Origin: Candidatus Latescibacterota bacterium
Lineage (GTDB): Bacteria > Latescibacterota > UBA2968
Length of the DNA stretch: 64,000 bases
Direction: 5' to 3'
NCBI GenBank assembly: GCA_022821275.1
Contig: JAJEDY010000011.1
Span: forward strand, 1-64,000
Shown in pieces: positions 14,498 through 36,247 of this stretch. The position numbers were made by a program, and so were the translations under genes. Within the stretch, counting starts at the first letter, position 1, and each line of letters opens with the position of its first letter. A model generated the notes under the pieces. The model did no database searches and was not told where the DNA came from. It worked only from the letters and a program-made list of their open reading frames with translations.

Positions 14498-15469
14498 TCA
14501 CCTATTATACGGAAAATGTCCCCCACGCACATTGCGCCACACCGCGTCGCAAGCCTCTAACACATCCTCATCCAGACGCCCATCTGCGGCCTGAATATTG
14601 TGCGTCAGGTGTTCCAACTTGCTCGCGCCCAAAATCATCGAATCGACAATCGACTGAGACATCAACCATTGCAAAGACAATTCAATTATCGTCTTGTCCG
14701 CAGTATGTGCAATCTGCTTCAACGCATCAAGCGCGTCAAAATTTCGATCGTGCCAGAACCTGCCGTAATAATCCCGATTCAAATCGAAACGCGTACCCGC
14801 CGCGGGTGCGGTATCCCGCGTGTGCTTGCCCGTCAGCATGCCCGCTGCAAGCGGATTATATACGGCCATTCCAATATTCATTTCACGACTAAACGCAACG
14901 CACTCCTCATCGATACTCCGCGTAATCAAATTGTAGGGCACCTGCAACACCACAGGTGGTGCCCAATTATTTACATCGCATTTCCAGAGCGCTTTCATCA
15001 CCTGCCAGGAAGCGAAATTCGACATCCCCACATATATAATCTTGCCCTGTTGTACCAATGTGTCAAACGCCGCCATCGTCTCCTCAAGAGGCGTATCCCA
15101 ATCGGGCTTGTGCAAATAGAGAATATCCAGACAATCGGTCTGCAACCGCTTCAAACACGCTTCCACACCCCGAATCACATGCCAGCGGTGCAACCCCTGA
15201 TCCTTAATCTCATCCTGTCCGACAAAATTGGCGATCTTGCTCGCCAAAATCACCCGATCGCGTTTGCCCTTGAGTGCCTTGCCCACAATCTCTTCGGACA
15301 CGCCATTCACATAAGTATCTGCCGTATCGATAAAATTCACACCGGCATCCAGAGCCGTATCCACCATGCGAATGGATGTAGCCTCATCGGCCTGATCGCC
15401 AAATGTCATAGCTCCCAAACATATACGCGACACGCGAATACCCGTCCCTCTCAAAACGCGATACTCCAT
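14498..15469 (-). CDS. Aldo/keto reductase
   Basis: The ATG at 15469 has AGGAGGAG just upstream. The 323-residue protein opens with EYRVLRGTGIRVSRICLGAMTFG, carries the AKR active-site Asp/Tyr block (NFIDTADTYVNGVSEEIVGKAL) and Lys (ILASKIAN) and the usual barrel strands (DILYLHKPD). It is an NAD(P)H-dependent oxidoreductase of the YajO/Tas-like group; the substrate is not predictable. It is transcribed divergently from the small membrane protein at 15562. Confidence 0.9.
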   Translation of the reverse strand: MEYRVLRGTGIRVSRICLGAMTFGDQADEATSIRMVDTALDAGVNFIDTADTYVNGVSEEIVGKALKGKRDRVILASKIANFVGQDEIKDQGLHRWHVIRGVEACLKRLQTDCLDILYLHKPDWDTPLEETMAAFDTLVQQGKIIYVGMSNFASWQVMKALWKCDVNNWAPPVVLQVPYNLITRSIDEECVAFSREMNIGMAVYNPLAAGMLTGKHTRDTAPAAGTRFDLNRDYYGRFWHDRNFDALDALKQIAHTADKTIIELSLQWLMSQSIVDSMILGASKLEHLTHNIQAADGRLDEDVLEACDAVWRNVRGGHFPYNR

Positions 15470-18960: not shown

Positions 18961-19632
18961 ATGGACGGCATTCACGACATGGGTGGGATGCATGGATTTG
19001 GTCCCATAGAGCGCGAAGAAAACGAACCTTTATTTCATCACCCCTGGGAAAGCCGGGTACTCGCCATCTCCGTAGCCACGCCTGTACCGATCCCCGGAGG
19101 CTCCCGCAACAACATCGAAAACATGGACCCGGCGCACTACCTCTCGTCCAGCTACTACGAAAAATGGCTGTATTCCCGTATCAAAGGACTGATCGACGCC
19201 GGCGTACTAACCCCGGAAGAAATGAAAACGCGGATGGCGCTCTTGCGGAACAATCCCAATGCCGAAACCCCGGCACATCCCGACCCCGATGCCGTCAGAT
19301 CTGAATTCAAGCGCTCTCGTCCTGCCACCCCTCCCCAACAGAAAATGGACATCCAGCCGCAATTTTCCAATGGCGACCGCGTAAAAGCGCGCAATATCCA
19401 CCCCGAAGGCCACACCCGGCTTCCCCGATACGTAAGGGGGAAATACGGCACCGTCACCAATTACTACGGCATCGACAACCTCCAGGACGCCGAACTGCCC
19501 ACAGGGTGTACAAACCGCCAGCAGCCCTTATACGCCGTGCGCTTTGAAGCCTCGGAACTATGGGGTAGTGCCGCCGAAACAAAAAGTGCCGTCTATCTGG
19601 ATATGTGGGAAAGTTATCTGGAACCCGTTTAA
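18961..19632 (+). CDS. nthB: Nitrile hydratase beta subunit
   Basis: The N-terminus MDGIHDMGGMHGFGPI is the NHase beta signature. A GGGAG ribosome site precedes the ATG. The 223-residue protein has the helical N-terminal half (AHYLSSSYYEKWL) and the C-terminal SH3-like barrel (GDRVKARNIHPEGHTRLPRY). With the alpha subunit encoded 27 bases downstream it forms the hydratase that converts nitriles to amides. Beta-alpha-accessory order is common for cobalt-type enzymes. Confidence 0.93.
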   Translation: MDGIHDMGGMHGFGPIEREENEPLFHHPWESRVLAISVATPVPIPGGSRNNIENMDPAHYLSSSYYEKWLYSRIKGLIDAGVLTPEEMKTRMALLRNNPNAETPAHPDPDAVRSEFKRSRPATPPQQKMDIQPQFSNGDRVKARNIHPEGHTRLPRYVRGKYGTVTNYYGIDNLQDAELPTGCTNRQQPLYAVRFEASELWGSAAETKSAVYLDMWESYLEPV

Positions 19633-19659
19633 CCATCCCCAAGCAAAAAGGATTCTTTT

Positions 19660-20250
19660 ATGAACACCGCCGAGACTGACGCAGCCCTGCGCACCAGAGC
19701 GCTCGAATCGCTCCTGATTGAAAAGGGATTGATTACAGAGGACATTATAGACGAAGTTGTAGAAAAATACGAAAAAGACGTAGGTCCGCTCAACGGTGCC
19801 AGAGTGGTTGCCCGCGCCTGGACCGATCCGGACTACAAGCAACGGCTGCTTGAAGATGGCAGAGCGACGATTGCCGAACTGGGTTTTGACAGCGCGCAGG
19901 GCGCCAAAATCGTCGTACTCGAAAACACCCCAGACGTCCACCACCTCGTCGTCTGCACCCTGTGCTCCTGTTATCCCTGGTCCGTACTCGGCCTGCCCCC
20001 AAACTGGTACAAATCCTACGCGTACCGCTCTCGAGCCGTACGAGAGCCAAGAGCCGTCTTGCTGGAATTTGACCTCGACCTGCCCGATGCCGTAGAAATC
20101 CGCGTCTGGGACAGCAACTCGGACCTCCGCTACATGGTCCTGCCCGAACGCCCTGCTGGCACAGAAGACTACACCGAAGAACAACTCATCTCACTCGTCA
20201 CGCGCGACTCAATGATCGGCGTCGCCAAAATCGAATCGCCCTCAAAGTGA
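19660..20250 (+). CDS. nthA: Nitrile hydratase alpha subunit, cobalt type
   Basis: The 196-residue protein contains [10 protein letters not shown] with Cys99, Cys102, Ser103 and Cys104, the metal-binding claw. Thr after the first Cys (CTLCSC rather than CSLCSC) indicates a low-spin Co(III) site. A thiocyanate hydrolase gamma subunit shares this motif, but the downstream NHase accessory gene and fused-type beta subunit favour nitrile hydratase. The start at 19660 follows AAAAGGATTC. Confidence 0.93.
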
Positions 20251-20257
20251 GGCCGGG

Positions 20258-20602
20258 ATGACGCAAAAAACCGATAAAAACATCGCCACTATGGAAGCGC
20301 GAATCGCCCTGCCCAGAGAAAATGGAGAACTCGTTTTTCAGGCTCCCTGGGAAGCGCGGGCTTTCGGTCTCGCCGTTGCACTCAACGAAAAAGACCTCTA
20401 CGAATGGCGTGAGTTCAGTTCCCAATTGGCTTCGAAAATCGCGGCAGCAGAACAAAACAACACCCCATCGAGCTACTATGCCCGATGGGTCGCCTCCCTC
20501 GAAGAATTGATCATTGCCCAGGGCTTAATCAGCCGGGAACAACTGGACGCCAGAACAGCGGAATACGCCATTCACGACGATCACGATCATCACGACCACT
20601 AA
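20258..20602 (+). CDS. Nitrile hydratase accessory protein with His-rich tail
   Basis: The 114-residue product resembles the N-terminal half of NHase beta subunits (FQAPWEARAFGLAVALNEK; SSYYARWVASLEELI), as do the P14K/activator proteins that swap cobalt-loaded alpha subunits into the apoenzyme. The C-terminus HDDHDHHDH is an obvious metal-binding tail. It starts 8 bases after the alpha stop, so the three genes form one operon ending in a terminator. Confidence 0.85.
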   Translation: MTQKTDKNIATMEARIALPRENGELVFQAPWEARAFGLAVALNEKDLYEWREFSSQLASKIAAAEQNNTPSSYYARWVASLEELIIAQGLISREQLDARTAEYAIHDDHDHHDH

Positions 20603-21844: not shown

Positions 21845-22005
21845 TTCTCTTCCCCCCCTAAAAAATGGAACAAAATAGAACAGCAGTAACTTGCTTGTTC
21901 GCTGGTTAAAATTATATTTGAAGCACATTTTTGTCACAGTTTGTGCAGTCAGATAAACAAACGTTGTCCAAAGAATTAGTAATCTACTCTCTGTCAATAA
22001 CATCT

Positions 22006-22269
22006 ATGCTTATAGAAAACTCAAACATAAATGAAAAAGTAAAAAGCGTGATTATTGATTCATTAGAGCTTGATATTGCGCCAGATGAAATGGACAATAA
22101 TGATCCGTTATTTGGTGAAGGATTAGGTGGGAACTCTATGGCACTGATGGAAGTGATCGTTGGTCTCGAAAAGGCTTTTGGGATAGAAATATCGGATGAA
22201 GAGTTGATCATGGATGTTTTTGAGACCGTAAATAGCATTGCTGAGTTCATCAAATCTAAGGTATCCTGA
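22006..22269 (+). CDS. Acyl carrier protein (phosphopantetheine site)
   Basis: The 87-residue product from ATG 22006 is a four-helix carrier protein with GLGGNSMALMEVI at the 4'-phosphopantetheine site; Ser follows Asn where most carriers have Asp. An earlier in-frame TTG at 21931 is less likely because carriers are about 80 residues. Neither start has a good ribosome site. It is the first plus-strand gene of the island and lies 23 bases before a glycosyltransferase. No ketosynthase, adenylation or phosphopantetheinyl transferase gene is nearby, so loading must use enzymes encoded elsewhere. Confidence 0.85.
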   Translation: MLIENSNINEKVKSVIIDSLELDIAPDEMDNNDPLFGEGLGGNSMALMEVIVGLEKAFGIEISDEELIMDVFETVNSIAEFIKSKVS

Positions 22270-23433: not shown

Positions 23434-24462
23434 ATGAAGAAAACTCTTCCCATCACCATCCCTCCAGTTACCGGCTATCTACACCACGCCTATCCACTTT
23501 CAATCCTCGCTAATTGGACGGCGTATCTTCCATGGTTCTACAGTAATTACATCCAGTTATACTGCCCTCAAAATCTTCAGAACCTGCGCAGGAACCGAAC
23601 TCTGAAATTCAATTTTTATCGCCGACCCGATCAACGCTTCTCCTTTTCTCCTTACTTGAAGGTTCAATTTTTAGACCGAAACCTGATTTTTAAATCTCCG
23701 ACAGACATCGTGCCTTTCATCACCGCCTGCATTGACAAGGGCTACTATGTCCAACCCACTGTGGATGAATATTTTTTGCCTGATAGTGCTGCGTATCAGA
23801 CAAGGCATTTTATGCATGAAACGCTCATCCACGGCTACGACAATCAAATTTTTATTGGCATCGGTTACAACAAACAGGGCGATTACGCCGCATACCACAT
23901 CGCTTTTTCTGAGTTGGAACGGGCGATTCTACATGCCGACCTGACTGGTCATTACGATTCTGATGGCCTAAGACTGTTCAAGTATGACCTGCATGCCAAA
24001 TACGATTTTGACATACATCTGGTTCGAGAACAACTCTCCGATCTTCTCCAGGCGCGCAACTCATCCGAACGCTTTCGCATGGTTGCAAATCCCATAGACG
24101 GTGCTTATGGCCTGGCGACATATCCTTGCCTAAAAAGCTATATTGAGTCCTTTTTACATCCTCCGTTCTCTTTCGATATTCGCCCTGCTCACATTCTTTG
24201 GGAACACAAAAAATGCATGGTTGATAGGCTTAAATATATGGAAGTGCAAGGCTATTTAAAGTCCGAATATGGGTTCTCTGCTGAATATGACGAACTGATG
24301 CGAAACACCGGTATAGTCAGACTGATGTTACTCAAGTTCAAAATAACGCGCAGCCCCGATCTAATACACCGCGTGCTTTCACGCCTGGACAACATCGCAG
24401 AAAAAGAAAAAAGCCTCCTTCAAAATTTGCTGAGCAAACTCGATTCATTCGAGATGAAATAG
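23434..24462 (+). CDS. Unrecognised biosynthetic protein, possibly BtrH-like
   Basis: The 342-residue soluble protein starts 7 bases after the glycosyltransferase stop. The segment VDEYFLPDSAAYQTRHFMHE and the following LIHGYDNQIFIGIGYN, a beta-rich part ending in YHIAFSELERAI, recalls N-terminal domains of BtrH-type papain-fold acyltransferases, which move acyl groups off carrier proteins. A helical C-terminal part follows. The resemblance is by eye and weak; I see no obvious Cys nucleophile near the N-terminus (GYLHHAYPLS). The adjacent carrier protein makes an acyl-transfer role plausible. Confidence 0.4.
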   Translation: MKKTLPITIPPVTGYLHHAYPLSILANWTAYLPWFYSNYIQLYCPQNLQNLRRNRTLKFNFYRRPDQRFSFSPYLKVQFLDRNLIFKSPTDIVPFITACIDKGYYVQPTVDEYFLPDSAAYQTRHFMHETLIHGYDNQIFIGIGYNKQGDYAAYHIAFSELERAILHADLTGHYDSDGLRLFKYDLHAKYDFDIHLVREQLSDLLQARNSSERFRMVANPIDGAYGLATYPCLKSYIESFLHPPFSFDIRPAHILWEHKKCMVDRLKYMEVQGYLKSEYGFSAEYDELMRNTGIVRLMLLKFKITRSPDLIHRVLSRLDNIAEKEKSLLQNLLSKLDSFEMK

Positions 24463-24495: not shown

Positions 24496-26349
24496 ATGAG
24501 TGTAAAAATCGCTGTTATTGATAGTGGTATTGAAAGTGCTCACCCCGGTATCGAAACGGTTGCCGGTGGTGTGAATTTGTCACTGGATGAAAAAGGAAAC
24601 GTTATTCATTCTGATGACTATGAAGATTGTGCGGGTCACGGAACCGCATGTGCGGGCATTATTCGAAAGAAGGCTCCCGATGCCGAATTGTACAGTATTC
24701 GGATTTTCGACCCGTCGCTATCTGCCCACGGCGATGTTTTAATTGCGGCGATTGAGTGGGCTATTGACAATAAAATAGACGTTTTGAATCTAAGTCTGGG
24801 TTCGACAGATGTATCCTATAAAGAGCGGCTTAGAGATGTGTGCCTACGAGCCGTTAAAGCCGGGCTGACCATTGTCGCTGCCGAGCACAATGCGGGTCTT
24901 GAATGCTATCCGGCTGTCTTCCCGGAGGTCATAGGTGTCGGTGGAGGAGATATTTACCATCCAGATACCTACCTGTACAGAGATGCACAGGCTATTGAAT
25001 TTGTCGCAAGAGGAAATAAACAGAGGCTTTGCTGGTTGGACGGTAAGGAAATCATCAGCGATGGAACCAGCTTCGCAGCACCTCATATTACAGGGATTGT
25101 AGGGCGATTACTTCAGGAAAATCCCGGACGATCCTTATCTGACATCAGGCAAATTCTCATTGAGAATGCAGAGAAGATACCATCTGATTCGCAGGCTGTT
25201 CGGTCGCTCCAGGGTCGAAGATCTCTTGACAGAGATTACAGTTGGGTAAAAAGAGCGGTCTTGTATCCGTATAATAAAGAAATGCATTCTCTGATGCGTT
25301 ATCGCGACATGCTGCAATTTGAGATTGTTGCTGTGGCCGACCCGGTAGCAAAGGGATTGGTGGGCAATGATGCTGGCTCTGTTATAGGGGAACAACCGTG
25401 CGGGCTGCGGATTCAACCCAATTTGTCTGAGGCACTGCGCGAAGGGGATACACTTATTTTAGGCTATGTGGATCAGTTAATGCGGATACAACAGCGGGAT
25501 TTACTGAAAGAATTTATCGTGATGGCATTGGAAGCGGATCTAAATATTTTCAGTTTTCAGACCGTAGATCCAGACCGATATCGAGACTTATATCAATTGG
25601 CCGAACAGAACAACCGATCTATTGTATTTCCACACATTGGTTTTGACGAAATCGCTGCTTCCCAGGAGGCGTATGATCTTTATCCCAATGTGGATGCACC
25701 TGTAATCGCTGTCATGGGCACGAGTTCTCAACAAGGCAAATTTACGTTGCAGATGGCTTTACGCCGGTCATTCTTAAAAGCCGATTACAAAGTGGCTCAG
25801 ATCGGCACTGAACACCACTCGGAATTGTTCGGAATGGATTTTGCCTTTCCCATGGGGTATGGTTCAACACTCAAAATGCCCCAGCAATCCTATGTCCCGT
25901 TTTTGGATTTTAAGATGCGCGAAATCAACCACCACATGCAACCCGAAATCATCATCACGGGTTCACAATCCGGCACCATACCTTATGATGTGTATGATCA
26001 CACGACACATTCTCTATCTTCACTTGCTTTTCTTCTCGGTGTCAAACCAGATGCGTGTGTTCTTATTGTCAACAGTATTGATACCGATGAATACATCCGG
26101 GACACGATAGATGGCATACGCGCCATAAGTAAAGCACCCACTCTGGCCCTTGCTATGGGGGACAAAGAAAAGCATGTCCGCACAGCTTATGGCAAAAGCC
26201 TTGTGACGACGAGTGAACTGCCACAAAAAGAAATAGATTCGCATCTCAAACGGCTAACGGAGTCTTTCGACTTGCCAGCAATACAAATTTTATCTGAGAG
26301 AGATCAAGAGCGGTTATTCAAAATTATCGTGGACTATTTTTCGAAATAG
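24496..26349 (+). CDS. Cytoplasmic subtilase (S8) fused to DUF1611 domain
   Basis: The 617-residue protein has no signal peptide. Residues 1-245 form a compact subtilisin domain with Asp9 (IAVIDSG), His48 (GHGTACAG), oxyanion Asn132 (VAAEHN, with Glu-His replacing the usual Gly) and Ser192 (GTSFAAPH). Residues about 252-617 match DUF1611: a Rossmann-like part (KRAVLYPY..VAVADPVAKG) and a P-loop part with GTSSQQGKFT (408-417) and TGSQSGTIP. DUF1611 includes the D-glutamate N-acetyltransferase DgcN. An intracellular protease in this setting could remove a leader peptide; the DUF1611 half could acylate or otherwise modify. The fusion itself is unusual. Confidence 0.8.
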   Translation: MSVKIAVIDSGIESAHPGIETVAGGVNLSLDEKGNVIHSDDYEDCAGHGTACAGIIRKKAPDAELYSIRIFDPSLSAHGDVLIAAIEWAIDNKIDVLNLSLGSTDVSYKERLRDVCLRAVKAGLTIVAAEHNAGLECYPAVFPEVIGVGGGDIYHPDTYLYRDAQAIEFVARGNKQRLCWLDGKEIISDGTSFAAPHITGIVGRLLQENPGRSLSDIRQILIENAEKIPSDSQAVRSLQGRRSLDRDYSWVKRAVLYPYNKEMHSLMRYRDMLQFEIVAVADPVAKGLVGNDAGSVIGEQPCGLRIQPNLSEALREGDTLILGYVDQLMRIQQRDLLKEFIVMALEADLNIFSFQTVDPDRYRDLYQLAEQNNRSIVFPHIGFDEIAASQEAYDLYPNVDAPVIAVMGTSSQQGKFTLQMALRRSFLKADYKVAQIGTEHHSELFGMDFAFPMGYGSTLKMPQQSYVPFLDFKMREINHHMQPEIIITGSQSGTIPYDVYDHTTHSLSSLAFLLGVKPDACVLIVNSIDTDEYIRDTIDGIRAISKAPTLALAMGDKEKHVRTAYGKSLVTTSELPQKEIDSHLKRLTESFDLPAIQILSERDQERLFKIIVDYFSK

Positions 26350-26368: not shown

Positions 26369-27223
26369 ATGCCACATCAATCAATCGTTCTGGCCTGTGC
26401 CAATTCTGTTTTTCTTTTAGAAATGCGCTCTGAAATTGAGAAAAATTTTGAAGCCGAGATAATCGAAACCACAGATGACAAGAACAGGTTTTGGGATTGT
26501 TTGAAGGAAATGAGGCCCTCGGTCCTCTGTATTTCAATGGATTTACTCGACAGTATTGGGCAAGTCTCTCAAATCAGGAAATTGGCGAAGAGATCGAAAG
26601 TGATTATTTGGGGCGAGGATAATATCGTCCAAGCTGTTGACGCGATGTATTTGGGGGCTGATTACTATATCCCGAAGGGAGGGAATATAGCGTTCTTTTT
26701 TCAGAAACTCCTGATGATCACGGGTTTGAGAAGAAAATCTCACTCTGTATGGGCTTCAAAATTAGACGGTTTTTTGAGAGACCATTTCACAGATCCATCC
26801 TTAAAATTGAGCACACTGTGCGATCATTTCGGGATTTCATCGAGCTATGCGACGCGGTTATTTCGCGAACATATCGGGATGTCCTTTCACAAGTGTTTAT
26901 CCTTTTATCGCGTGGAAGAAGCAAAACGTCATCTTGCTGAAACTAAAGATCTGGTTTATGAGATTGCTGACAAGTGCGGGTTCACAAATAGCAACCATTT
27001 GATCAGAGTCTTTTTTGATTTTACAAATATGTCGCCAGGCCAGTATCGAAAGTCCTTAAAGGACACTGATTGGTTGGCATACAATTTGTCTGATCATTCG
27101 ATGCCACTGCCCCTCTCCCAACCCCCAATGCCTTCAAATCCATTGCAAAAGAGAATCTTCCGATACGACAACAACTCTGTGACTGACTTTGCAGCAAAAG
27201 ATGTGTTTAAGTGTACAAAATAG
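26369..27223 (+). CDS. AraC-type regulator with degenerate receiver domain
   Basis: GGAGGGGTGA precedes the ATG. Residues 1-115 look like a response-regulator receiver: VLCISMDLLD at strand 3, VIIWGE at strand 4 and DYYIPKGG with the conserved Lys at strand 5, but the phospho-acceptor position appears to be Ser and the N-terminal acidic pair is missing. Residues about 125-230 are an AraC double HTH (LSTLCDHFGISSSYATRLFREH; VYEIADKCGFTNSNHLIRVFF). It sits just before the first peptide cassette, and the duplicated upstream leader begins inside its 3' end, so it may control both cassettes. Confidence 0.8.
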   Translation: MPHQSIVLACANSVFLLEMRSEIEKNFEAEIIETTDDKNRFWDCLKEMRPSVLCISMDLLDSIGQVSQIRKLAKRSKVIIWGEDNIVQAVDAMYLGADYYIPKGGNIAFFFQKLLMITGLRRKSHSVWASKLDGFLRDHFTDPSLKLSTLCDHFGISSSYATRLFREHIGMSFHKCLSFYRVEEAKRHLAETKDLVYEIADKCGFTNSNHLIRVFFDFTNMSPGQYRKSLKDTDWLAYNLSDHSMPLPLSQPPMPSNPLQKRIFRYDNNSVTDFAAKDVFKCTK

Positions 27224-27420
27224 ATACGAGTGGCAGAAAATGATATTCATAAGGTTTGTCGCTGCAATCACAAGACCATATCTTTAGATCAAGTTACGAT
27301 GCAGAGTGCATCGAGGTTGTTCACTACAGAGAGCCGCGTGATTGTTTGGTCAAAAGCATTCTGATGACCTTAAAGCCGCCATTCATGTTGGTTTCGAAAC
27401 ACACCGAAAGGAGATCTCAG
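27195..27420 (+). repeat. Duplicated upstream leader, copy A
   Basis: About 225 bases before the first small peptide gene match 29437-29660 almost without gaps, e.g. CAAAATAGATACG, TGGCAGAAAATGATATTCAT, TTTAGATCAAGTTACGATGC and GGTCAAAAGCATTCTGATGA. Copy A overlaps the end of the AraC gene. An ORF continuing upstream of ATG 27421 exists here but the equivalent frame in copy B is out of phase, so the region is likely a promoter/5' leader and not coding. Confidence 0.8.
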
Positions 27421-27669
27421 ATGAAGATCACGTTGCACAAACCCCAGCGCGAGGCTGTAAATGCAGTTCTTGCATATCATGACGAGTCTCATCCTGCTTG
27501 GGATTGCAACCAGGCTGATTATTGGTATGAAAACGGTACCTATTTTGCTTATTGGGAATGTGACACTACCTGTAGAGGTGTGAAATGTTACTATGAAGAA
27601 GATGCTGGAGAGTGCACTATGTGGGAAAAGCCCTCATCTGACTATACAGTTAAGGGATGCTTAGGGTAA
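27421..27669 (+). CDS. Candidate peptide precursor A (Cys-rich, KPQRE leader)
   Basis: AAAGGAG lies 8 bases before ATG 27421. The 82-residue product begins MKITLHKPQREAVNAVLAYH, shares its first ~20 residues with the second peptide (29661), and then turns into an acidic, Tyr/Trp-rich segment with six Cys (29, 47, 51, 56, 65, 80). A conserved short leader followed by a variable Cys/aromatic core is what ribosomal natural product precursors look like. It is flanked by a regulator, a strong hairpin and a lipoprotein gene. No known precursor family was recognised; a small secreted toxin or structural peptide is the alternative. Confidence 0.7.
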   Translation: MKITLHKPQREAVNAVLAYHDESHPAWDCNQADYWYENGTYFAYWECDTTCRGVKCYYEEDAGECTMWEKPSSDYTVKGCLG

Positions 27670-27738
27670 GAGTTGTTGGAAAATATTATATGGGCAACAG
27701 ATGGATGATTCTGTAGCATTGGTTGCCTCATATTAGAC

Positions 27739-27777
27739 AACAGGACAGCGTACTTGCATCGTATGTTGTCCTGTTTA
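27739..27777 (+). terminator. Hairpin/terminator after peptide A
   Basis: AACAGGACAGCGTAC (27739-27753) pairs with GTATGTTGTCCTGTT (27761-27775) around TTGCATC, a 15-bp stem with two G-T pairs, then TTAATATT. The outer nine base pairs are the same as in the hairpin at 29183-29219. Confidence 0.75.
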
Positions 27778-27823
27778 ATATTCATTACTGTTGGATATTG
27801 AACCTCGCTTGCGAAGGGTCAAC

Positions 27824-27841: not shown

Positions 27842-27946
27842 AGGTGTTGGCTGTTAACCGAACTGGCTGGCGTTTATTATTTTCACTAAAAACAGCACTT
27901 GACCGATTTTTCTATTTCCCTGTATTTTACTCTGAGGAGATTATGT

Positions 27947-29140
27947 ATGACAAAAACAATCATTCTATTTTGTGTTTTTTGCTTCTTTTTTTCCTGTAAT
28001 CACAATACAGAAATGCAAGACAAGCCGTCTTTGCAAAATTCAGCGGCACAAACAACAGAGAACCATCAAATACGGATGACAAAAAACTCTGAAATCCGCT
28101 TAAAAGAAAATGAAAAAGCATATATTGGAACAATTCAAAAAATAAAAGTTGATGAAAGCCGAATTTATCTTATGGATAATAGCCTGAAACAAATTCTAAT
28201 ATTTTCCTTGGAAGGCGAATTTATTCGCGCCTTTGGTAGAAGCGGTGAAGGGCCTGGCGAATTTCGCTTTTTATATACGATGGATGTCAAAGATAACTTG
28301 ATCGCCTGCTTTGACCAGGGAACCCGTCGAATGACCTTGTTTGACACTTCGGGCGTATTCATCAGGTCTTTTGGGACACAATCGAAAAAGTCAGTCCCTT
28401 CGGGTAACCGCATTGCAATCACACAACATTATACGATTCTACACTGTCAAAAAACTAAGGGACTTCCCAAGAAACAGTGGCTATCATACTCCTATCCTTA
28501 TTTGATCTGTGAATTTGATACATTGGGCAACGTCCTTTCGCATCATGGAAAATTCAACCAACAGATTGTCAGGGATAAACTGGACAAACCACTTGCTGAA
28601 TTTAAGTGGTCATTTCCTCAATTTATCGCAACAAGAGATTCTCAAACGTATCTTTGGTTTGACAATCTTCCCATTGTTGTTGAATATGACAAAAGCCATG
28701 CGGTTTCCAAAGTTTTCAACGTTGCAACGCCAATTACAAAACCACAGTGGGTTGATAAAGACGATGAGAAAAATGCAGAAAAACTCCGACATTTGAGTAA
28801 AGAAGAAAGAAGGAAATTGGTCATCGAAAAAATAAAAAAAGATCATTCGGAAATAACGCAAATGTATGACATTGCTTATGTTGACACGCATTCCATCTTA
28901 TTGACTTTACAAACAGAAGAAGTACGCCGAGGTTTGGACCGAACACGTACTCACTATCTGAGTGCTTATGATGTAAATACGGGGCGTCGTTTAATGACAG
29001 ATATGCCTCTACAATCAGAAACACAATTGACAGAACAGAGCATCGCCGTTGGCCCTGATGGCTTTATATATTGCATTCAGAGTGATAAACCCGACAATTT
29101 TGTAATTGCTAAATACGAGATAGTTAGAGAGGACAATTAG
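27947..29140 (+). CDS. Six-bladed beta-propeller lipoprotein A
   Basis: ATG 27947 has GAGGAG seven bases upstream. The 397-residue protein starts with a lipoprotein signal (MTKTIILFCVFCFFFSC; Cys17). The body has beta-propeller strands such as VDESRIYLMDNSLKQILIFS, GEFIRAFGRSGEGPGEFRFL and NLIACFDQGTRRMTLFD, as in the NHL/6-bladed propeller lipoproteins of Bacteroidetes. It is a close paralogue of 31416-32618. Cell-surface or periplasmic binding is likely. Pairing of one such gene with each peptide gene suggests a peptide-specific partner such as an immunity, receptor or maturation factor. Confidence 0.8.
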   Translation: MTKTIILFCVFCFFFSCNHNTEMQDKPSLQNSAAQTTENHQIRMTKNSEIRLKENEKAYIGTIQKIKVDESRIYLMDNSLKQILIFSLEGEFIRAFGRSGEGPGEFRFLYTMDVKDNLIACFDQGTRRMTLFDTSGVFIRSFGTQSKKSVPSGNRIAITQHYTILHCQKTKGLPKKQWLSYSYPYLICEFDTLGNVLSHHGKFNQQIVRDKLDKPLAEFKWSFPQFIATRDSQTYLWFDNLPIVVEYDKSHAVSKVFNVATPITKPQWVDKDDEKNAEKLRHLSKEERRKLVIEKIKKDHSEITQMYDIAYVDTHSILLTLQTEEVRRGLDRTRTHYLSAYDVNTGRRLMTDMPLQSETQLTEQSIAVGPDGFIYCIQSDKPDNFVIAKYEIVREDN

Positions 29141-29182
29141 AGATCGAGAACCGGAATAAAAATATCTTTCGCGAAATGAGAC

Positions 29183-29227
29183 AACAGGACAATGCACTCA
29201 AAAAGTGTGTTGTCCTGTTCCATTTTA
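29183..29227 (+). terminator. Terminator after lipoprotein A
   Basis: AACAGGACAATGCAC (29183-29197) pairs with GTGTGTTGTCCTGTT (29205-29219) around TCAAAAA, followed by CCATTTT. The stretch 29228-29436 holds no gene I can recognise. Confidence 0.8.
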
Positions 29228-29436
29228 CAGAATCTCGCTGACACACATCTCAAGGTCCTGCTGTTTTACTTGATTATTGAAGCGATCACGTTGCTGTGAA
29301 CAGTATTGCGCTAATGGTACGCCAGATCCTCAGCAGCGTGGGATAGAGGTCAGGCATCAAAATTTATAGACATAATCCGTGTTTTGCCAGGAATACCTCC
29401 AACACCGCGCTTAATTATCCTATGCCGTTTTTGCTA

Positions 29437-29660
29437 CAAAAGACACATTTGAGTGTGCAAAATAGATACGTGTGGCAGAAAATGATATTCATAAGGTTTG
29501 TCGCTGGAATCACAAGGCCATATCTTTAGATCAAGTTACGATGCAGAGTGCATCAAGGTTGTTAATCACAGGGAACCGTGTGATTATTTGGTCAAAAGCA
29601 TTCTGATGACCTTTAGCCGCTGTTCACGCGGGTCTCGAAACATAACGAAAGGAGCTTCAA
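29437..29660 (+). repeat. Duplicated upstream leader, copy B
   Basis: This matches 27195-27420 from CAAAAG through the ribosome site (AAAGGAGC) and into the first codons of the peptide gene. The spacing from repeat start to ATG differs by only two bases (226 and 224). Substitutions are scattered and do not preserve a reading frame into the peptide gene. Confidence 0.8.
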
Positions 29661-29871
29661 ATGAAGCGCGTATTGCTCAAACCTCAGAGGGAGATTATGA
29701 ACTCTGTTCTCGCATATCAGAACGAGGATTGGGTTGATGAATATGAGTATGAGTATTTTGATGACTATTACTGTGACGGTGATGATATCTGTGAGTATAA
29801 AATCGATATGGGTGATTGGACTTGACCCGTTTTAGTGGACAACTTATCTCTTTCAGAGAAAGGAGTCCAAA

Positions 29872-30183
29872 ATGGGCAGAAAAAGATCATATCCAGCAGC
29901 ATTTCGCCAGCAAATGGTCGCGCTGGTCAGATCGGGTCGTAGTGCCAATGATTTGGCCAAAGAGTTTGAGCCGACCGCCCAGACGATCAGTGCCTGGGTG
30001 CGTCAAGCAGATCGCGATGAAGGCCGTCGAGACGATGGGTTGACCAGTCGTGAGCGGGAAGAACTTCAAAGGCTTCGCAGAGAAAATAAACGCTTACGAC
30101 AAGAGCGCGAGATCCTTGCAAAAGCCGCGGCCTGGTTCGCACGGGAGACCGAAGCGATACCCCCCAAATCTTCAGATATATAA
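29872..30183 (+). CDS. IS3 transposase OrfA (HTH)
   Basis: The 103-residue protein has the N-terminal HTH (YPAAFRQQMVALVRSGRSANDLAKEF, split helices) and a Leu-zipper-like segment (EELQRLRRENKRLRQEREIL) followed by AKAAAWFARE, typical of IS3 OrfA. A ribosome site AAAGGAG lies upstream. An AAAAG run at 30119-30123 could serve for -1 frameshifting into orfB. Confidence 0.92.
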   Translation: MGRKRSYPAAFRQQMVALVRSGRSANDLAKEFEPTAQTISAWVRQADRDEGRRDDGLTSREREELQRLRRENKRLRQEREILAKAAAWFARETEAIPPKSSDI

Positions 30184-31063
30184 AGGCGCATCAGGCCGTC
30201 TATCCAATCACCATGCTATGCCAAATGCTGGGCGTCTCCACCAGCGGGTATTATGTCTGGTGTGATCGACCTGTATCTCAAAGGGCACAGGACGATAAAC
30301 AGTTGACAGAACTCATAAAAGGTTTTCACCAACGTTCCAAAGGAACTTATGGTGCGCCTCGTATTTTTCATGACCTGCGTGAGATAGGGATCCACACGAG
30401 TCGTAAGCGTGTTGCAAGACTGATGCGACAAGCCAATATATGTGGTGTCAGCCGAAGAAAAGGTATCCGTATAACACAACAATCTGAGACAGCAGAAAAA
30501 GCCCCTGATCTGGTCAAGCGAGACTTTAGGGTTGAGGCGCCCAACACGCTATGGGTTGCTGATATTACCTACATACCCACCTACTCTGGCTTTTTGTATC
30601 TATCTGTTGTTCTCGACGCCTTCTCCAGACGTGTGGTTGGCTGGGCCATGGCCTCACACTTGAAGACGCAATTGGTCTTGGATGCCCTGGATATGGCACT
30701 TTGGAATCGACGACCAGATGGGGTCATCCATCACTCAGATCAAGGGTCTCAATATACCTCCTACGCTTTCGGTCAACGCTGCGTAAGAATGGGGGTCAGA
30801 CCTCTGTCGGATCGGTTGGCGATTGTTTTGACAATGCCTTGTGTGAAAGCTTCTTTGCTACCCTTGAGTGCGAGGTGATAGACCGAGAAAGCTTCCCCAA
30901 TCATAGCCAGGCCAAACTCGCTATCTTTGAGTATATTGAAGGGTGGTATAATCCACATCGCAGACACTCTGCACTGAAGTACCAATCGCCCATCACCTAT
31001 GAAAAACTGATGGCAATGGGTGATGAAGTTGAAACTTATACACTATCCACTAAAGCGGGGTAA
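30165..31063 (+). pseudogene. IS3 transposase OrfB, one-base frameshift
   Basis: The first part reads from about 30165 (IFRYIKAHQAVYPITMLCQM) through the HTH-like and integrase core with the first Asp (WVADITYI) and second Asp (IHHSDQGSQYTS). At about 30802 the frame breaks: the expected RP-SVGSVGDCFDNALCESFF continues in a frame shifted by one base and carries the catalytic Glu and the C-terminus up to 31063. A single missing base explains it. Either the transposase is dead or the base is a sequencing error. Confidence 0.85.
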
Positions 31064-31261
31064 CTCCAGATTGCACAGAGTATACTAGATTCGGTGAAAT
31101 TAACGGTGAACCTTTCGATCTGGCTACTTGTTAGATACCTGAAGGGTTGCATAAATCATAGTATCTGGAGATGATTATGAACAGCATATGAGTTCTGCCA
31201 ACCTGAGCCATTTCATACATCAAGGCAGTCTGCAATTATGCGCACCTCGCAGATAGATAAT

Positions 31262-31305: not shown

Positions 31306-31415
31306 ACTGATCTAATTATTGACTTACAAAAATTAGATATGTAGATTCTTAGAATTAACCAATCTAAAGATTATTTCATATAACTAAAAGGTTAAAGTAG
31401 CTTTTGAGGATGTAC

Positions 31416-32618
31416 ATGACGAAATCAATTACTTTACTTTCTTTTTTTTACTTATTTTTCGCTTGCAATCAGAATGCAGAAATATCTCAAGACAAGATAC
31501 CTTTGCAAAATTCAGTTGCAAAAACAGTAAAGAAAAAGCAGATACAGATGGAGAAGGTTTCAGAGATACACATAAAAGAAAATGAGGAAAATTATATTGG
31601 AACAATTCATAGAATGCGAGTTGATGAAAACCGAATTTATCTCATGGATAAGAGCCGTAAGCAAGTTCTGATCTTTTCTAAGGAAGGTGAATTTATTCGC
31701 GCCCTGGGCAGGAGCGGCGAAGGACCCGGTGAGTTTCGCTATTTATATACGATGGATGTCAAAGATAACTTAGTCGTTTGTTTTGACCAGGGGAACCTTC
31801 GAATGACCTTGTTTGACACTTCGGGTGTATTCATCAGGTCTTTTGGAACTCGATCACAAAAGTCAGCACCTCAGGGCAATTGTGTTGCGATCACACAACA
31901 TCATACGATCCTACACTGCCAACAACCTACAGCATTAACAAGAGAGCAGGATTTGGCACATACCTATCCCTGGTTGATTTGTGAATTTGATACCTTGGGC
32001 AACGTCCTTTCTCATCATGGAAAATTCAACCAACAGATTGTCAACCGTCAGATCATAGGTGATAAAATTGACAAACCGTTCACTGAATTTAAGTGGTCAT
32101 TTCCTCGTTTTATCACAAACAGAGCTTCACAAACGTATCTTTATTTTTCTAACATCCCGATTGTTGTTGAGTATGATGAAAGCCAGGCGGTTTCCAAAGT
32201 TTTCAACGTTGCAACAACGATTACGAAACCCACATGGGTTGATAAAAGTGCAGAAAAATTTCAGCATTTGAATGACGAAGCAAGAAGGAACTTGGTCAAT
32301 CAACGAATAAAGAACGAGCATTCGATAAGAACATTTATCTCTGATGTTGCTTATGTTGACAAATATTCAGTTTTATTAGTTTTACAAACCGAAGAAGTAC
32401 GCCGAGGCATTTTTGACCGGACGCGTTCTTATTATCTCAGTGCGTATGATGTAAATACTGGGCATCTATTAATGGCGGATATGCACATATCATCGGACGT
32501 ACCCCTGTCTATCCAGCGCATACCAGTTGACCAAGATGGTTTTGTGTATTGCATTCAGAATGATCAGCCTGACAATTTTATAATCGCCAAATATAAGATC
32601 GTTAGAGGAGAAATTTAA
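31416..32618 (+). CDS. Six-bladed beta-propeller lipoprotein B
   Basis: ATG 31416 lies six bases after GAGGA. The 400-residue product has a lipoprotein signal (MTKSITLLSFFYLFFAC) and is alignable with lipoprotein A over its whole length, e.g. GEFIRALGRSGEGPGEFRYL, TLFDTSGVFIRSFGT and LQTEEVRRG near the end. Its stop overlaps the next start (TAATG), so it is coupled to the thioredoxin-like gene. The duplication includes the upstream peptide gene. Confidence 0.82.
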   Translation: MTKSITLLSFFYLFFACNQNAEISQDKIPLQNSVAKTVKKKQIQMEKVSEIHIKENEENYIGTIHRMRVDENRIYLMDKSRKQVLIFSKEGEFIRALGRSGEGPGEFRYLYTMDVKDNLVVCFDQGNLRMTLFDTSGVFIRSFGTRSQKSAPQGNCVAITQHHTILHCQQPTALTREQDLAHTYPWLICEFDTLGNVLSHHGKFNQQIVNRQIIGDKIDKPFTEFKWSFPRFITNRASQTYLYFSNIPIVVEYDESQAVSKVFNVATTITKPTWVDKSAEKFQHLNDEARRNLVNQRIKNEHSIRTFISDVAYVDKYSVLLVLQTEEVRRGIFDRTRSYYLSAYDVNTGHLLMADMHISSDVPLSIQRIPVDQDGFVYCIQNDQPDNFIIAKYKIVRGEI

Positions 32619-33316
32619 TGGACAAAACCTTAAACCATAATCCCTTAAAATTGCCGATACCCAAAAAGGCGATAATCGGTTTGGGAAGCCTCATTCTCGT
32701 GGGATGGGCAATCATTACAGTTGTTTTGTTCGTCGAATATCGCAAAAGCAAGGCATTGCTTGCCGAGTATTCACCTATTGTAGAAAGGTATAATTATGTT
32801 AAGAATCTGGGCGTGCAACACAGAACGCTGGAAACGATGACTTTTCCCGAAGCTTCTCTAAAAATCTTGACTGGCGATTCAACAGCAGTAAGAAATCTTG
32901 GAGAAAAAACGGATTACTCTGTTGCGATTCTTTTTACGAAAAATGATTGTTCTTCCTGTTTGGAGACCGAGTTGGACTTATGGCAAAAGTTTTACACCCA
33001 AAATGCAGAAAACCTCGATGTGGTTGCCATAGCCAAAATTACCCCACTGACGACGCAAGAAAAAATTGAAAGAGAACTCGGTGGTTTGTGGAAAGAGCCT
33101 GTTTATTATGACAAAAATGAGCCTTCGCTATTCGAGCATCTGAATATTACACATACACCGACCTTGCTCTTTTACGAAAAAAGAACGCGCAAAATTATAT
33201 ACGCGCACCTCGGAATGGTTGGTGATCGCGTTGGACCAGAAAGTTTTAAGCAAAAAGTGGCAGCCTGGCTCAAGCTCAAAGGTAAGACGGTAAATCTGGA
33301 CTATGATAAATCCTGA
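32618..33316 (+). CDS. Membrane-anchored thioredoxin-like protein (MauD/TlpA-like)
   Basis: The 232-residue protein has one N-terminal helix (AIIGLGSLILVGWAIITVVLF) with the rest presumably periplasmic, a redox motif CSSC (ILFTKNDCSSCLETELD) and a thioredoxin-like cis-Pro region (HTPTLLFYEK). It is encoded in a TAATG overlap with lipoprotein B and upstream of a MauE-like gene. In methylamine dehydrogenase maturation MauD and MauE help form disulfides, so this pair may oxidise the Cys-rich peptides after export. Confidence 0.75.
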   Translation: MDKTLNHNPLKLPIPKKAIIGLGSLILVGWAIITVVLFVEYRKSKALLAEYSPIVERYNYVKNLGVQHRTLETMTFPEASLKILTGDSTAVRNLGEKTDYSVAILFTKNDCSSCLETELDLWQKFYTQNAENLDVVAIAKITPLTTQEKIERELGGLWKEPVYYDKNEPSLFEHLNITHTPTLLFYEKRTRKIIYAHLGMVGDRVGPESFKQKVAAWLKLKGKTVNLDYDKS

Positions 33317-33450
33317 TGCGTATGGAGGAAGATCTGGTCTCCCTACATCGGAGAGGGGCTGGAGGAGGGGTTCTAAATAGACCTGTGATTTTTGATTAAG
33401 AGTGGAGGTTATTTTAGACACTTATAGCCCCACTCTTTTTTGCGTGTATT

Positions 33451-33897
33451 ATGAATAATTTCCTAAAAATGGGCATACTGGTCGCCTTTTCGTCTCTCCT
33501 CAGTATTGGAAGTCTCAGCTTTCAGAATACAGATCACCTGTTTCATTCCAAAGACATTCCGGCCATTTCTCTACAAGCTGCAAGATGGTTTTTTGACCAA
33601 CAGGGCGTCGTATTTCTCGATGCGCGATCTCATCGAGAATACGCTATAGGTCACATACCGGGAGCCATCAATCTGCCTATCTCAAATTTTGAAAAACAGA
33701 AAACCGTTTTATTAAATATTCCATTAAGTGCTACGATTATTGTGTATTGCTCTGGGGTGACTTGTCAGAGCAGCTTGAAAATTGCGGAATGGACAAAAGA
33801 CTACTTGGGCGATCATAGAAACGTGTACGTATTCATAGAAGGTTTTCCCGCCTGGGAGAAAGCGAAGTTTCCCATTGCAGTTGAGAAAGATCAGTAA
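33451..33897 (+). CDS. Secreted rhodanese-like protein
   Basis: The 148-residue protein has an N-terminal signal or anchor (MGILVAFSSLLSIGSLSF) and a single rhodanese domain: VVFLDARSHREYAIGHIPGA and active-site loop YCSGVTCQSS with Cys. Rhodaneses carry sulfane sulfur or participate in thiol redox. It overlaps the MauE-like gene by TAATG. The 134-base gap to the previous gene has no recognisable gene. Confidence 0.88.
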   Translation: MNNFLKMGILVAFSSLLSIGSLSFQNTDHLFHSKDIPAISLQAARWFFDQQGVVFLDARSHREYAIGHIPGAINLPISNFEKQKTVLLNIPLSATIIVYCSGVTCQSSLKIAEWTKDYLGDHRNVYVFIEGFPAWEKAKFPIAVEKDQ

Positions 33898-34385
33898 TGT
33901 TCTTCTCTTTCATACAAGTCATGATGCGCCTCGTTTTGGGAGGCGTATTTTTATGGGCTGGCATCGTAAAAATACCGAATATCGAGTTATTCTCATATAC
34001 CGTGCGGGCGTATCATCTGCTGCCCGAGTTTTTGATTCTTCCAGTAACAATATTAGTGCCCTATCTCGAATGCGTCATTGGCCTGTGTTTGATCCTGGGA
34101 TTTTGGACGCACGCGAGCACGATCATTGCTTCGGGCCTGCTTATTGCCTTTGCCAGTGCATTGGGCACTAAAATTTATCAGGGCGTGAATATGTCCTGCG
34201 GATGCTTTGGCTTTGGCACGGAGCGCGGTTCTCTGGAATGGGTTCTGTCGCAGGATATGTTGCTGCTCTCATTTGCTCTAGTGCTCTTTTGGAAACAGAA
34301 GGTTCCATTTTCTCTCGATGGGTATTGGCAGAATCTGAGTGATCGCGGCAGGGATGTCGCTCCTACAGCATCCTTTCTTGATTAG
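33897..34385 (+). CDS. MauE/DoxX-like membrane protein
   Basis: The 162-residue protein has four hydrophobic helices and begins MFFSFIQVMMRLVLGGVFLWAG, with P..ELFSYTVRAYHLLP after helix 1 and the CGCFGFG motif after helix 3, typical of MauE. MauE partners a thioredoxin-like protein in periplasmic disulfide formation. It is coupled to the rhodanese gene. Confidence 0.85.
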   Translation: MFFSFIQVMMRLVLGGVFLWAGIVKIPNIELFSYTVRAYHLLPEFLILPVTILVPYLECVIGLCLILGFWTHASTIIASGLLIAFASALGTKIYQGVNMSCGCFGFGTERGSLEWVLSQDMLLLSFALVLFWKQKVPFSLDGYWQNLSDRGRDVAPTASFLD

Positions 34386-34471: not shown

Positions 34472-36247
34472 ATGAAAAAAAACAAAGACATGATCGCATT
34501 CTTTTTAAAATTCGTCATTCCCTACTGGCATTATGGCCTGGTTGTGCTCGCCTTTATGCTGGTCGGGATTGCGACATCGCTTGTATTCCCTTATGTCTTT
34601 AAAATTATTGTTGATGAAGCACTGCCGACACGAGATTATGAGTATTTGGTGACGCTGGTCGGCATATTGCTGGGGATCACGGGTCTCAATTTGATTCTGT
34701 CGTTTGTGTCGTACTATGTGTATAACTGGATCAACAACCGGGTCGTCAATGATATGCGGAGTACAATTTTTGAACACCTACTCTATGTCCCTTTTGAATT
34801 TCATCAAAAAACAAAGACAGGCGATCTGGTACACAGAATCAACAACGACATTAGTATCATCAGAAATTTTCTAACCTCAAGTGCATTCAATTTCTTGCGC
34901 AGTTGCCTGATGCTATTGGGGCTATCGTCAATTATGGCGTATCTGAATGTGAAACTCTTTCTCCTGTGTTTGATTGCAGCCCCTATCTTTATTGCCAACC
35001 TGATTTATTTTCGTCCCAAAATCAAAAATGTCACCGAAGAACGCCAAAAGGAGCGGTCTGAGTTGCTCAGTTTCTTTGTCGAGCGATTGAGCCGCGTTTT
35101 ACTGATTCAGTCTCACAACGGATATGGGAGTGAAAAGAATATCTTAGATAACAGGCTATCTACACTGATGGACTTAAATTTGCGAAATGTCTTCTATTCT
35201 GCTTCTATGGGTACGATATCTGGCGGAGTCCGCGCTGCGGTCCCCGCATCGATCTTACTCATTGGGGGGTATCAGGTCATAATGGGCACCATGAGTTTGG
35301 GAAGTTTATTTGCCTTTCTCCAGTATTTTTCCCGCATATTTTCGCCGATTCAAAGTTTAAATGGCCTGTACGTCAACTATGTAAGAACAACTGTCTCCAT
35401 GCGTCGCATATTAGACCTGATGGAAATCCCCGCGGCATCTTCAAAGTCTAATCTCCAAGCTCAGCCCTTTGCGTTTCAAGATCGCATTCGATTTGAGAAT
35501 GTTCACTACGCTTATGAAAAAGAAAAAATTGTTGAAGATTTGAATCTGGAATTGGTGAAAGGAAAGTCTTACGCATTGGTCGGGCCAAGCGGATGTGGAA
35601 AAACGACAGTGCTCCATTTGCTGTGTGGCTTTGTCCATCCACAGAATGGCCGTGTCACCATTGACAATGTTAATACCCGGGACATGGATATACATGACCT
35701 GAGAAACCATATTGCTTATGGTACGCAAACGCCCATGCTCTACCAGGACAGCATCCGGGCCAATATTTCTTATGGCAATTCGGAAATTCACGCTGAAGCT
35801 GTTGAAAGTGTTTTCAATGCTATGGGTTTTGAAAGTCTCAGTTTGGACACTCTTGTGGGCGACCAGGGGACGAAAATTTCTGGCGGACAACAGCAACGCA
35901 TCGCGCTTGCCCGCTTATTGATAAAAAAGGGTGATATTCTACTACTCGATGAGGCGACTTCAGCACTCGATTCTGAGAGTGAAGGCGTTATATATGACTT
36001 ATTGCGTTCACATTATCGAGACAAAACGATTCTCGTGGTCAGCCATCGCTGGTCCACGATACAAAAGGTTGAGGAAGTTATTTGTCTGTCAGATGGCAAA
36101 GTCGCAGAACGGGGAACCCCTGAAGAATTGATGCAAAAACGCGGGGTTTGCTGGCGGCTGTTTCAAGACCAGTATCACGTCGATAAGCCAAACCGTGAAT
36201 TAAGAGAGGCAGAATCCCCGAAACGTCTCGCCCTATTGGAAAGTTGA
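34472..36247 (+). CDS. ABC exporter (fused membrane and ATPase domains)
   Basis: The 591-residue half-transporter has six membrane helices (residues about 15-310) and an ATPase domain with Walker A GPSGCGKT (~370), signature ISGGQQQR (~469) and Walker B ILLLDEATS (~488). There is no N-terminal C39 peptidase domain, so any leader removal would need another protease, for which the subtilase-DUF1611 protein is a candidate. Being the last gene before a terminator, it is the probable exporter of the island peptide. Confidence 0.9.
   Translation: MKKNKDMIAFFLKFVIPYWHYGLVVLAFMLVGIATSLVFPYVFKIIVDEALPTRDYEYLVTLVGILLGITGLNLILSFVSYYVYNWINNRVVNDMRSTIFEHLLYVPFEFHQKTKTGDLVHRINNDISIIRNFLTSSAFNFLRSCLMLLGLSSIMAYLNVKLFLLCLIAAPIFIANLIYFRPKIKNVTEERQKERSELLSFFVERLSRVLLIQSHNGYGSEKNILDNRLSTLMDLNLRNVFYSASMGTISGGVRAAVPASILLIGGYQVIMGTMSLGSLFAFLQYFSRIFSPIQSLNGLYVNYVRTTVSMRRILDLMEIPAASSKSNLQAQPFAFQDRIRFENVHYAYEKEKIVEDLNLELVKGKSYALVGPSGCGKTTVLHLLCGFVHPQNGRVTIDNVNTRDMDIHDLRNHIAYGTQTPMLYQDSIRANISYGNSEIHAEAVESVFNAMGFESLSLDTLVGDQGTKISGGQQQRIALARLLIKKGDILLLDEATSALDSESEGVIYDLLRSHYRDKTILVVSHRWSTIQKVEEVICLSDGKVAERGTPEELMQKRGVCWRLFQDQYHVDKPNRELREAESPKRLALLES

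Follow-up and report, generated by a model that had tools for sequence, protein, structure and literature searches.

When a mobile element lies inside a short open reading frame, was that frame ever a gene, and if so, what kind of gene was it and what has the genome lost with it? This question is raised by a 64,000-nucleotide stretch of a draft genome from Latescibacterota, an uncultured phylum reported from sponges; the whole stretch is called the window here, and all features described in it below lie on the forward strand. In the window, an insertion sequence (IS) separates two pieces of a candidate 72-codon peptide gene, gene B, downstream of an intact paralog, gene A. We consider it highly probable, taking the parts together, that gene B genuinely belongs to the peptide A family and that the locus consists of tandem modules within a peptide-maturation and export locus, with an IS3-family element in the second precursor gene.

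Boundaries and state of the IS3-family element

The element spans 1,252 bp (29817-31068) and ends in imperfect terminal inverted repeats of about 25 bp, which start with TGGA and match at 20 of 25 positions. By sequence reading, GAT stands on both sides of it, at 29814-29816 and at 31069-31071. The original prediction had placed the element here, with near-matching terminal repeats and bracketed by GAT, and is upheld on both points. Its orfA (29872-30183) encodes an HTH_Tnp_1 domain (PF01527, E = 3e-10) and matches IS3 family transposases (E = 1e-11), and its orfB (30213-31063) encodes HTH_21 and an rve integrase core (PF00665, PF13276), scoring 236.7 bits against the NF033516 transposase model (cut-off 160). 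The frames overlap, orfA being open over nucleotides 20-364 of the element and orfB starting at nucleotide 274 in the -1 frame. The element thus has the three IS3-family features for which it was examined: an IS3-type DDE/rve transposase, overlapping frames with orfB in -1, and inverted repeats with a target duplication in the 3-5 bp range. It differs in that orfB of the window copy carries a 1-nt frameshift near position 30800, a point that the original prediction missed, so this copy probably cannot move by itself.

Searching the phylum, we found a full-length copy (bases 1-1252, 90% identity) in L131 with CTTT on both flanks and an intact orfB, a 324-residue frame open to nucleotide 1245, together with more distant copies flanked by CAC in L133 and by ACT in L136. 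Since GAT, CTTT, CAC and ACT flank separate copies, the target duplication of this element is 3-4 bp. The other copies have the same ends as the window copy, each with its own duplication, which supports these ends and GAT as the duplication. In another genome, G008, the contigs L144, L149, L153 and L157 start or stop within the element, some 140 bp from its left terminus, which suggests that the element is multi-copy there and breaks the assembly.

As the source genome is itself a draft of 101 contigs, the element could in principle have been placed between two real halves by the assembly. However, the genome holds a single near-full copy, which lies inside its contig, far from the contig ends, and has a perfect target duplication; the remaining matches are short fragments, several of which begin exactly at base 1 of the element or end at base 1252. 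One contig-internal near-full copy makes a repeat-driven misjoin unlikely, and we regard an assembly artefact as extremely improbable. As a genome event, the insertion is ordinary. That the duplication is perfect and both halves of the gene are still open points to a recent event.

Gene B as an interrupted member of the peptide A family

A GGAG ribosome-binding site precedes gene B, which starts at 29661. Its left piece (29661-29816) comprises 52 codons, including one GAT copy, and aligns as a 19-residue leader followed by the first part of a Cys core. The right piece (31072-31134) is open for 20 codons (31072-31131), the first and the last of which encode Cys, and ends in TAG at 31132-31134. 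Rejoined, they give a gene of 72 codons that is split by the element just before the codon of the third core Cys, in agreement with the coordinates and the count of the original prediction. The two pieces were analysed and searched separately, and the flanks were joined across the empty site once, for module comparison only.

The alternative that the two pieces have separate origins, as a leader-only peptide gene before the element and as 20 open codons arisen by chance, has to be weighed, because the right piece is so short. It is also favoured by the outcome of the search for an uninterrupted allele, which the original prediction had proposed to look for in related strains: neither a profile search of 15 genomes of the family nor a right-flank DNA search of 11 genomes of the genus turned one up. 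With no copy of the same allele found, support for gene B comes instead from other members of the family. A profile built only from the peptides of two relatives, L044 and L045, and so made without any window sequence, recovers the left piece of B with E = 1.6e-8 and peptide A with E = 4.9e-27 among 1463 window frames. All three intact peptides (A, L044 and L045) have the pattern C-x(4-5)-C-x8-C and a further Cys at most two residues from the C-terminus, and the C-x8-C spacing of the last two internal cysteines is invariant. The left piece of B has C-x5-C and stops exactly 8 residues past its second Cys, and the right piece opens with Cys, so the C-x8-C spacing is reproduced exactly across the junction. 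The C-terminal residue is Cys in B and in one relative. Under a dinucleotide background model, a right piece like that of B (Cys as first codon, a stop at 10-30 codons and Cys among the last three residues) has a chance of P about 0.002. Moreover, the flanking GAT and the element ends backed by other copies argue that the two sides adjoined each other until the insertion. Chance juxtaposition is therefore very unlikely, and the earlier claims that gene B was real and that its restored end is of the peptide A type are borne out by the independent profile, the C-x8-C position and the C-terminal Cys.

In its present state, the left frame reaches an in-frame TGA after two codons of the element (TGG ACT TGA), giving a 54-residue product that keeps the leader and is without half its cysteines. 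The Cys-containing end had been described as lost; it is indeed cut off from its start codon, but its 20 codons are still there, undecayed. Most likely, as judged from sequence, B is non-functional and A is retained. The DNA after gene B (31166-31255) has about 72% identity to several scattered sites in related genomes and is possibly an interspersed repeat.

Tandem modules and the probable repeated loss of the second

Gene A (27421-27669), identified by sequence and alignment as the intact paralog, encodes 82 residues with 6 Cys. The segment that runs from its upstream region into its leader codons (27188-27486) shares 83% identity with the corresponding segment before and into B (29425-29727), which in turn has 80-85% identity to the sequence upstream of the peptides in L044 and L045. 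Each module also has a 6-bladed beta-propeller protein with a family match to DUF5128, at 27899-29140 in module A and at 31404-32618 in module B, with 76% DNA identity between the two. The upstream and propeller identities together indicate a locus in which upstream region, peptide and propeller were duplicated in tandem. A conserved hairpin, ACAACAGGACA...TGTTGTCCTGTT, occurs after peptide A (27732-27785) and after propeller A (29175-29227), and again in L045 after the peptide (13205-13257) and after the propeller (14851-14895); it may limit read-through.

Among the close relatives of the source genome are MAGs listed as Candidatus Latescibacterota. Two relatives, L044 and L045, have the same locus, with 93% identity in the subtilase-TIGR04066 protein, and each keeps one peptide gene (from 6020 in L044 and from 12926 in L045). 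L044 has one module. L045 has one peptide and one propeller, plus an 84-bp remnant, 89% identical to the region before B, between the propeller and the thioredoxin-like genes. As this remnant comes without a peptide, the second module appears to have been lost more than once, probably at least twice: by the IS in the window and by deletion in L045.

The single peptide genes and the L045 remnant imply that a second copy is dispensable, and they fit a history in which B, as a duplicate of A, had begun to decay before the element landed, so that the insertion had no functional effect. In contrast, both halves of B are open, its leader, ribosome-binding site and Cys pattern are kept, and module B still has an intact propeller gene downstream. 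Prior decay is thus a possible but somewhat doubtful history, and we favor a recent entry of the element into the second precursor gene, before the third core Cys codon and with duplication of GAT.

A probable maturation and export locus around the peptides

The genes around the two modules suggest peptide processing and export. Upstream lie an acyl carrier protein with a weak TIGR04069 match (21931-22269; 31.9 bits against a cut-off of 70), a 342-aa protein with no family match (23434-24462), a fusion of a QhpE-like subtilase with a TIGR04066 peptide maturation protein, assigned by family models (24496-26349), and an AraC-type regulator identified by family match (26369-27223). Downstream lie a thiol-redox block of thioredoxin-like, rhodanese-like and MauE/DoxX genes (32618-34385; family matches, the rhodanese-like gene assigned from its sequence) and an ABC exporter with membrane and ATPase parts, found by family models (34472-36247), beyond which are genes resembling HlyD and two RND pumps. 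A GT28-type glycosyltransferase is also among the neighbours. The fused protein aligns with the full TIGR04066 model at E = 2.8e-35, yet scores 122 bits against a cut-off of 200, and its subtilase domain reaches 150.4 bits against the QhpE model (cut-off 165). An Rfam search of the region gave no match. Adjoining the peptide locus, at 18961-20602, are genes resembling nitrile hydratase subunits, with a CTLCSC motif in 19660-20250.

The 342-aa protein takes the position held by a BtrH-type acyltransferase in the sister locus L051, where a BtrH_N/DUF4872 protein stands beside an acyl carrier protein; this makes acyl transfer from the carrier protein a possible modification. In contrast to its counterpart, the window protein has no significant match: profile comparison with the BtrH relative gave only a weak 42-residue match, and its predicted structure is poor (pLDDT 47.5).

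The peptides have no family match in NCBIfam or Pfam, and the TIGR04065 precursor model finds nothing at this locus and nothing above its cut-off. Other TIGR04066 loci of the phylum have precursor-like ORFs with a common leader pattern, M-x-x-L-x-K...V-x-A-Y, and the cores behind it differ strongly, being Cys-rich, acidic, or Gly-rich and hydrophobic. In L051, the leader peptide overlaps or adjoins the propeller gene. Another TIGR04066 locus, L168, has from 15496 on the reverse strand an ORF with a leader of this type, the core of which is hydrophobic, rich in Gly and bacteriocin-like. In L057 (9998-11862, chromosome-level genome OY282377.1), the subtilase-TIGR04066 gene lies in two frames and is either a pseudogene or a sequence error.

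The signature of bacteriocin or RiPP precursors is a conserved leader joined to a variable core and encoded next to a protease and an exporter. The peptides are most likely exported, protease-matured precursors of this bacteriocin/RiPP-like kind, akin to the CLI_3235/SacP23 type without its radical-SAM enzyme. In the pathway that we propose, the leader of about 19 residues in A and B would be recognised and cut by the subtilase/TIGR04066 protein, and the Cys-rich core would be oxidised with the assistance of the thioredoxin and MauE proteins and possibly acyl-modified through the acyl carrier protein. The mature peptide would then be exported by the ABC transporter, and the adjoining propeller lipoprotein may act as its partner in binding or immunity.

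Relation to known systems

The SacP23 cluster of Paenibacillus polymyxa, reported as a bacteriocin cluster, has subtilase, TIGR04066, ACP and ABC genes and a 19-residue leader (PMC10731318), and a Roseburia cluster has the same subtilase, TIGR04066, ACP and ABC set (PMC4573289). The window locus resembles the CLI_3235/SacP23 type (TIGR04065, 04066, 04068 and 04069) in having a subtilase, an ABC exporter and Cys-rich precursors with a leader of about 19 residues, as well as a TIGR04066-like protein and an acyl carrier protein, whose matches to TIGR04066 and TIGR04069 stay below the cut-offs. It differs in that the subtilase and TIGR04066 protein are fused, its precursors do not match TIGR04065, and beta-propeller, MauE/thioredoxin, HlyD-like and RND-like genes are added. 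Moreover, the SacP23 and Roseburia clusters have a radical-SAM maturase, whereas no relative of TIGR04068 is found on the window's contig. Relatives of TIGR04068 occur in the same genome on other contigs only, and a radical-SAM maturase from there was rejected as a partner, since those read stand in other neighbourhoods, some of them adjoining other precursor-like ORFs. Also in this genome, a SPASM-type radical-SAM gene on L121 (G000:C56; 318-7440) precedes four precursor-like ORFs and protease-like genes; the four ORFs share 'GLTCKPLAILS.TISP.EMS..RGG' or a close variant and form a separate multi-precursor peptide cluster.

The QhpE-like subtilase, the AraC regulator and the nearby ABC exporter also recall the maturation of quinohemoprotein amine dehydrogenase, in which QhpE processes a cross-linked small subunit. 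By analogy, the peptides could serve the producing cell as subunits or ligands, for example as Cys-rich ligands bound by the propeller lipoprotein. The near-cut-off QhpE score, the recurrence of the peptide-propeller pairing in L051 and the presence of MauE/thioredoxin genes are consistent with such a role. However, no dehydrogenase subunit (QhpA, QhpB or QhpC) and no QhpD was recognised among the 10 cluster proteins scanned against family models, and related leaders bear unrelated hydrophobic Gly-rich cores, a better fit to diverse exported peptides. We consider a subunit or ligand role unlikely and retain the exported-precursor interpretation.

Within the libraries searched, the peptide family hit by the element is undescribed, and the locus represents a known type of peptide maturation in a form that lacks the radical-SAM enzyme. 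A broader proposal, for which we see the balance as even, is that A and B belong to an undescribed Latescibacterota-wide precursor class. Such a class would be marked by a conserved leader that is about 19 residues long and closes with A-Y, and by hypervariable cores; a subtilase fused to TIGR04066 would accompany it, and an acyl carrier protein paired with an acyltransferase would replace the radical-SAM enzyme. In the window, its precursors would come in modules of peptide and beta-propeller that are duplicated and lost, in this genome through the IS.

The insertion is useful in that it shows the second peptide gene to be both real and dispensable, with an apparent independent loss in a relative. 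On sequence grounds, the locus suggests that the phylum has a still unnamed family of peptides with leaders; their maturation would proceed without the radical-SAM step known from the closest described systems and may instead use an acyl carrier protein.
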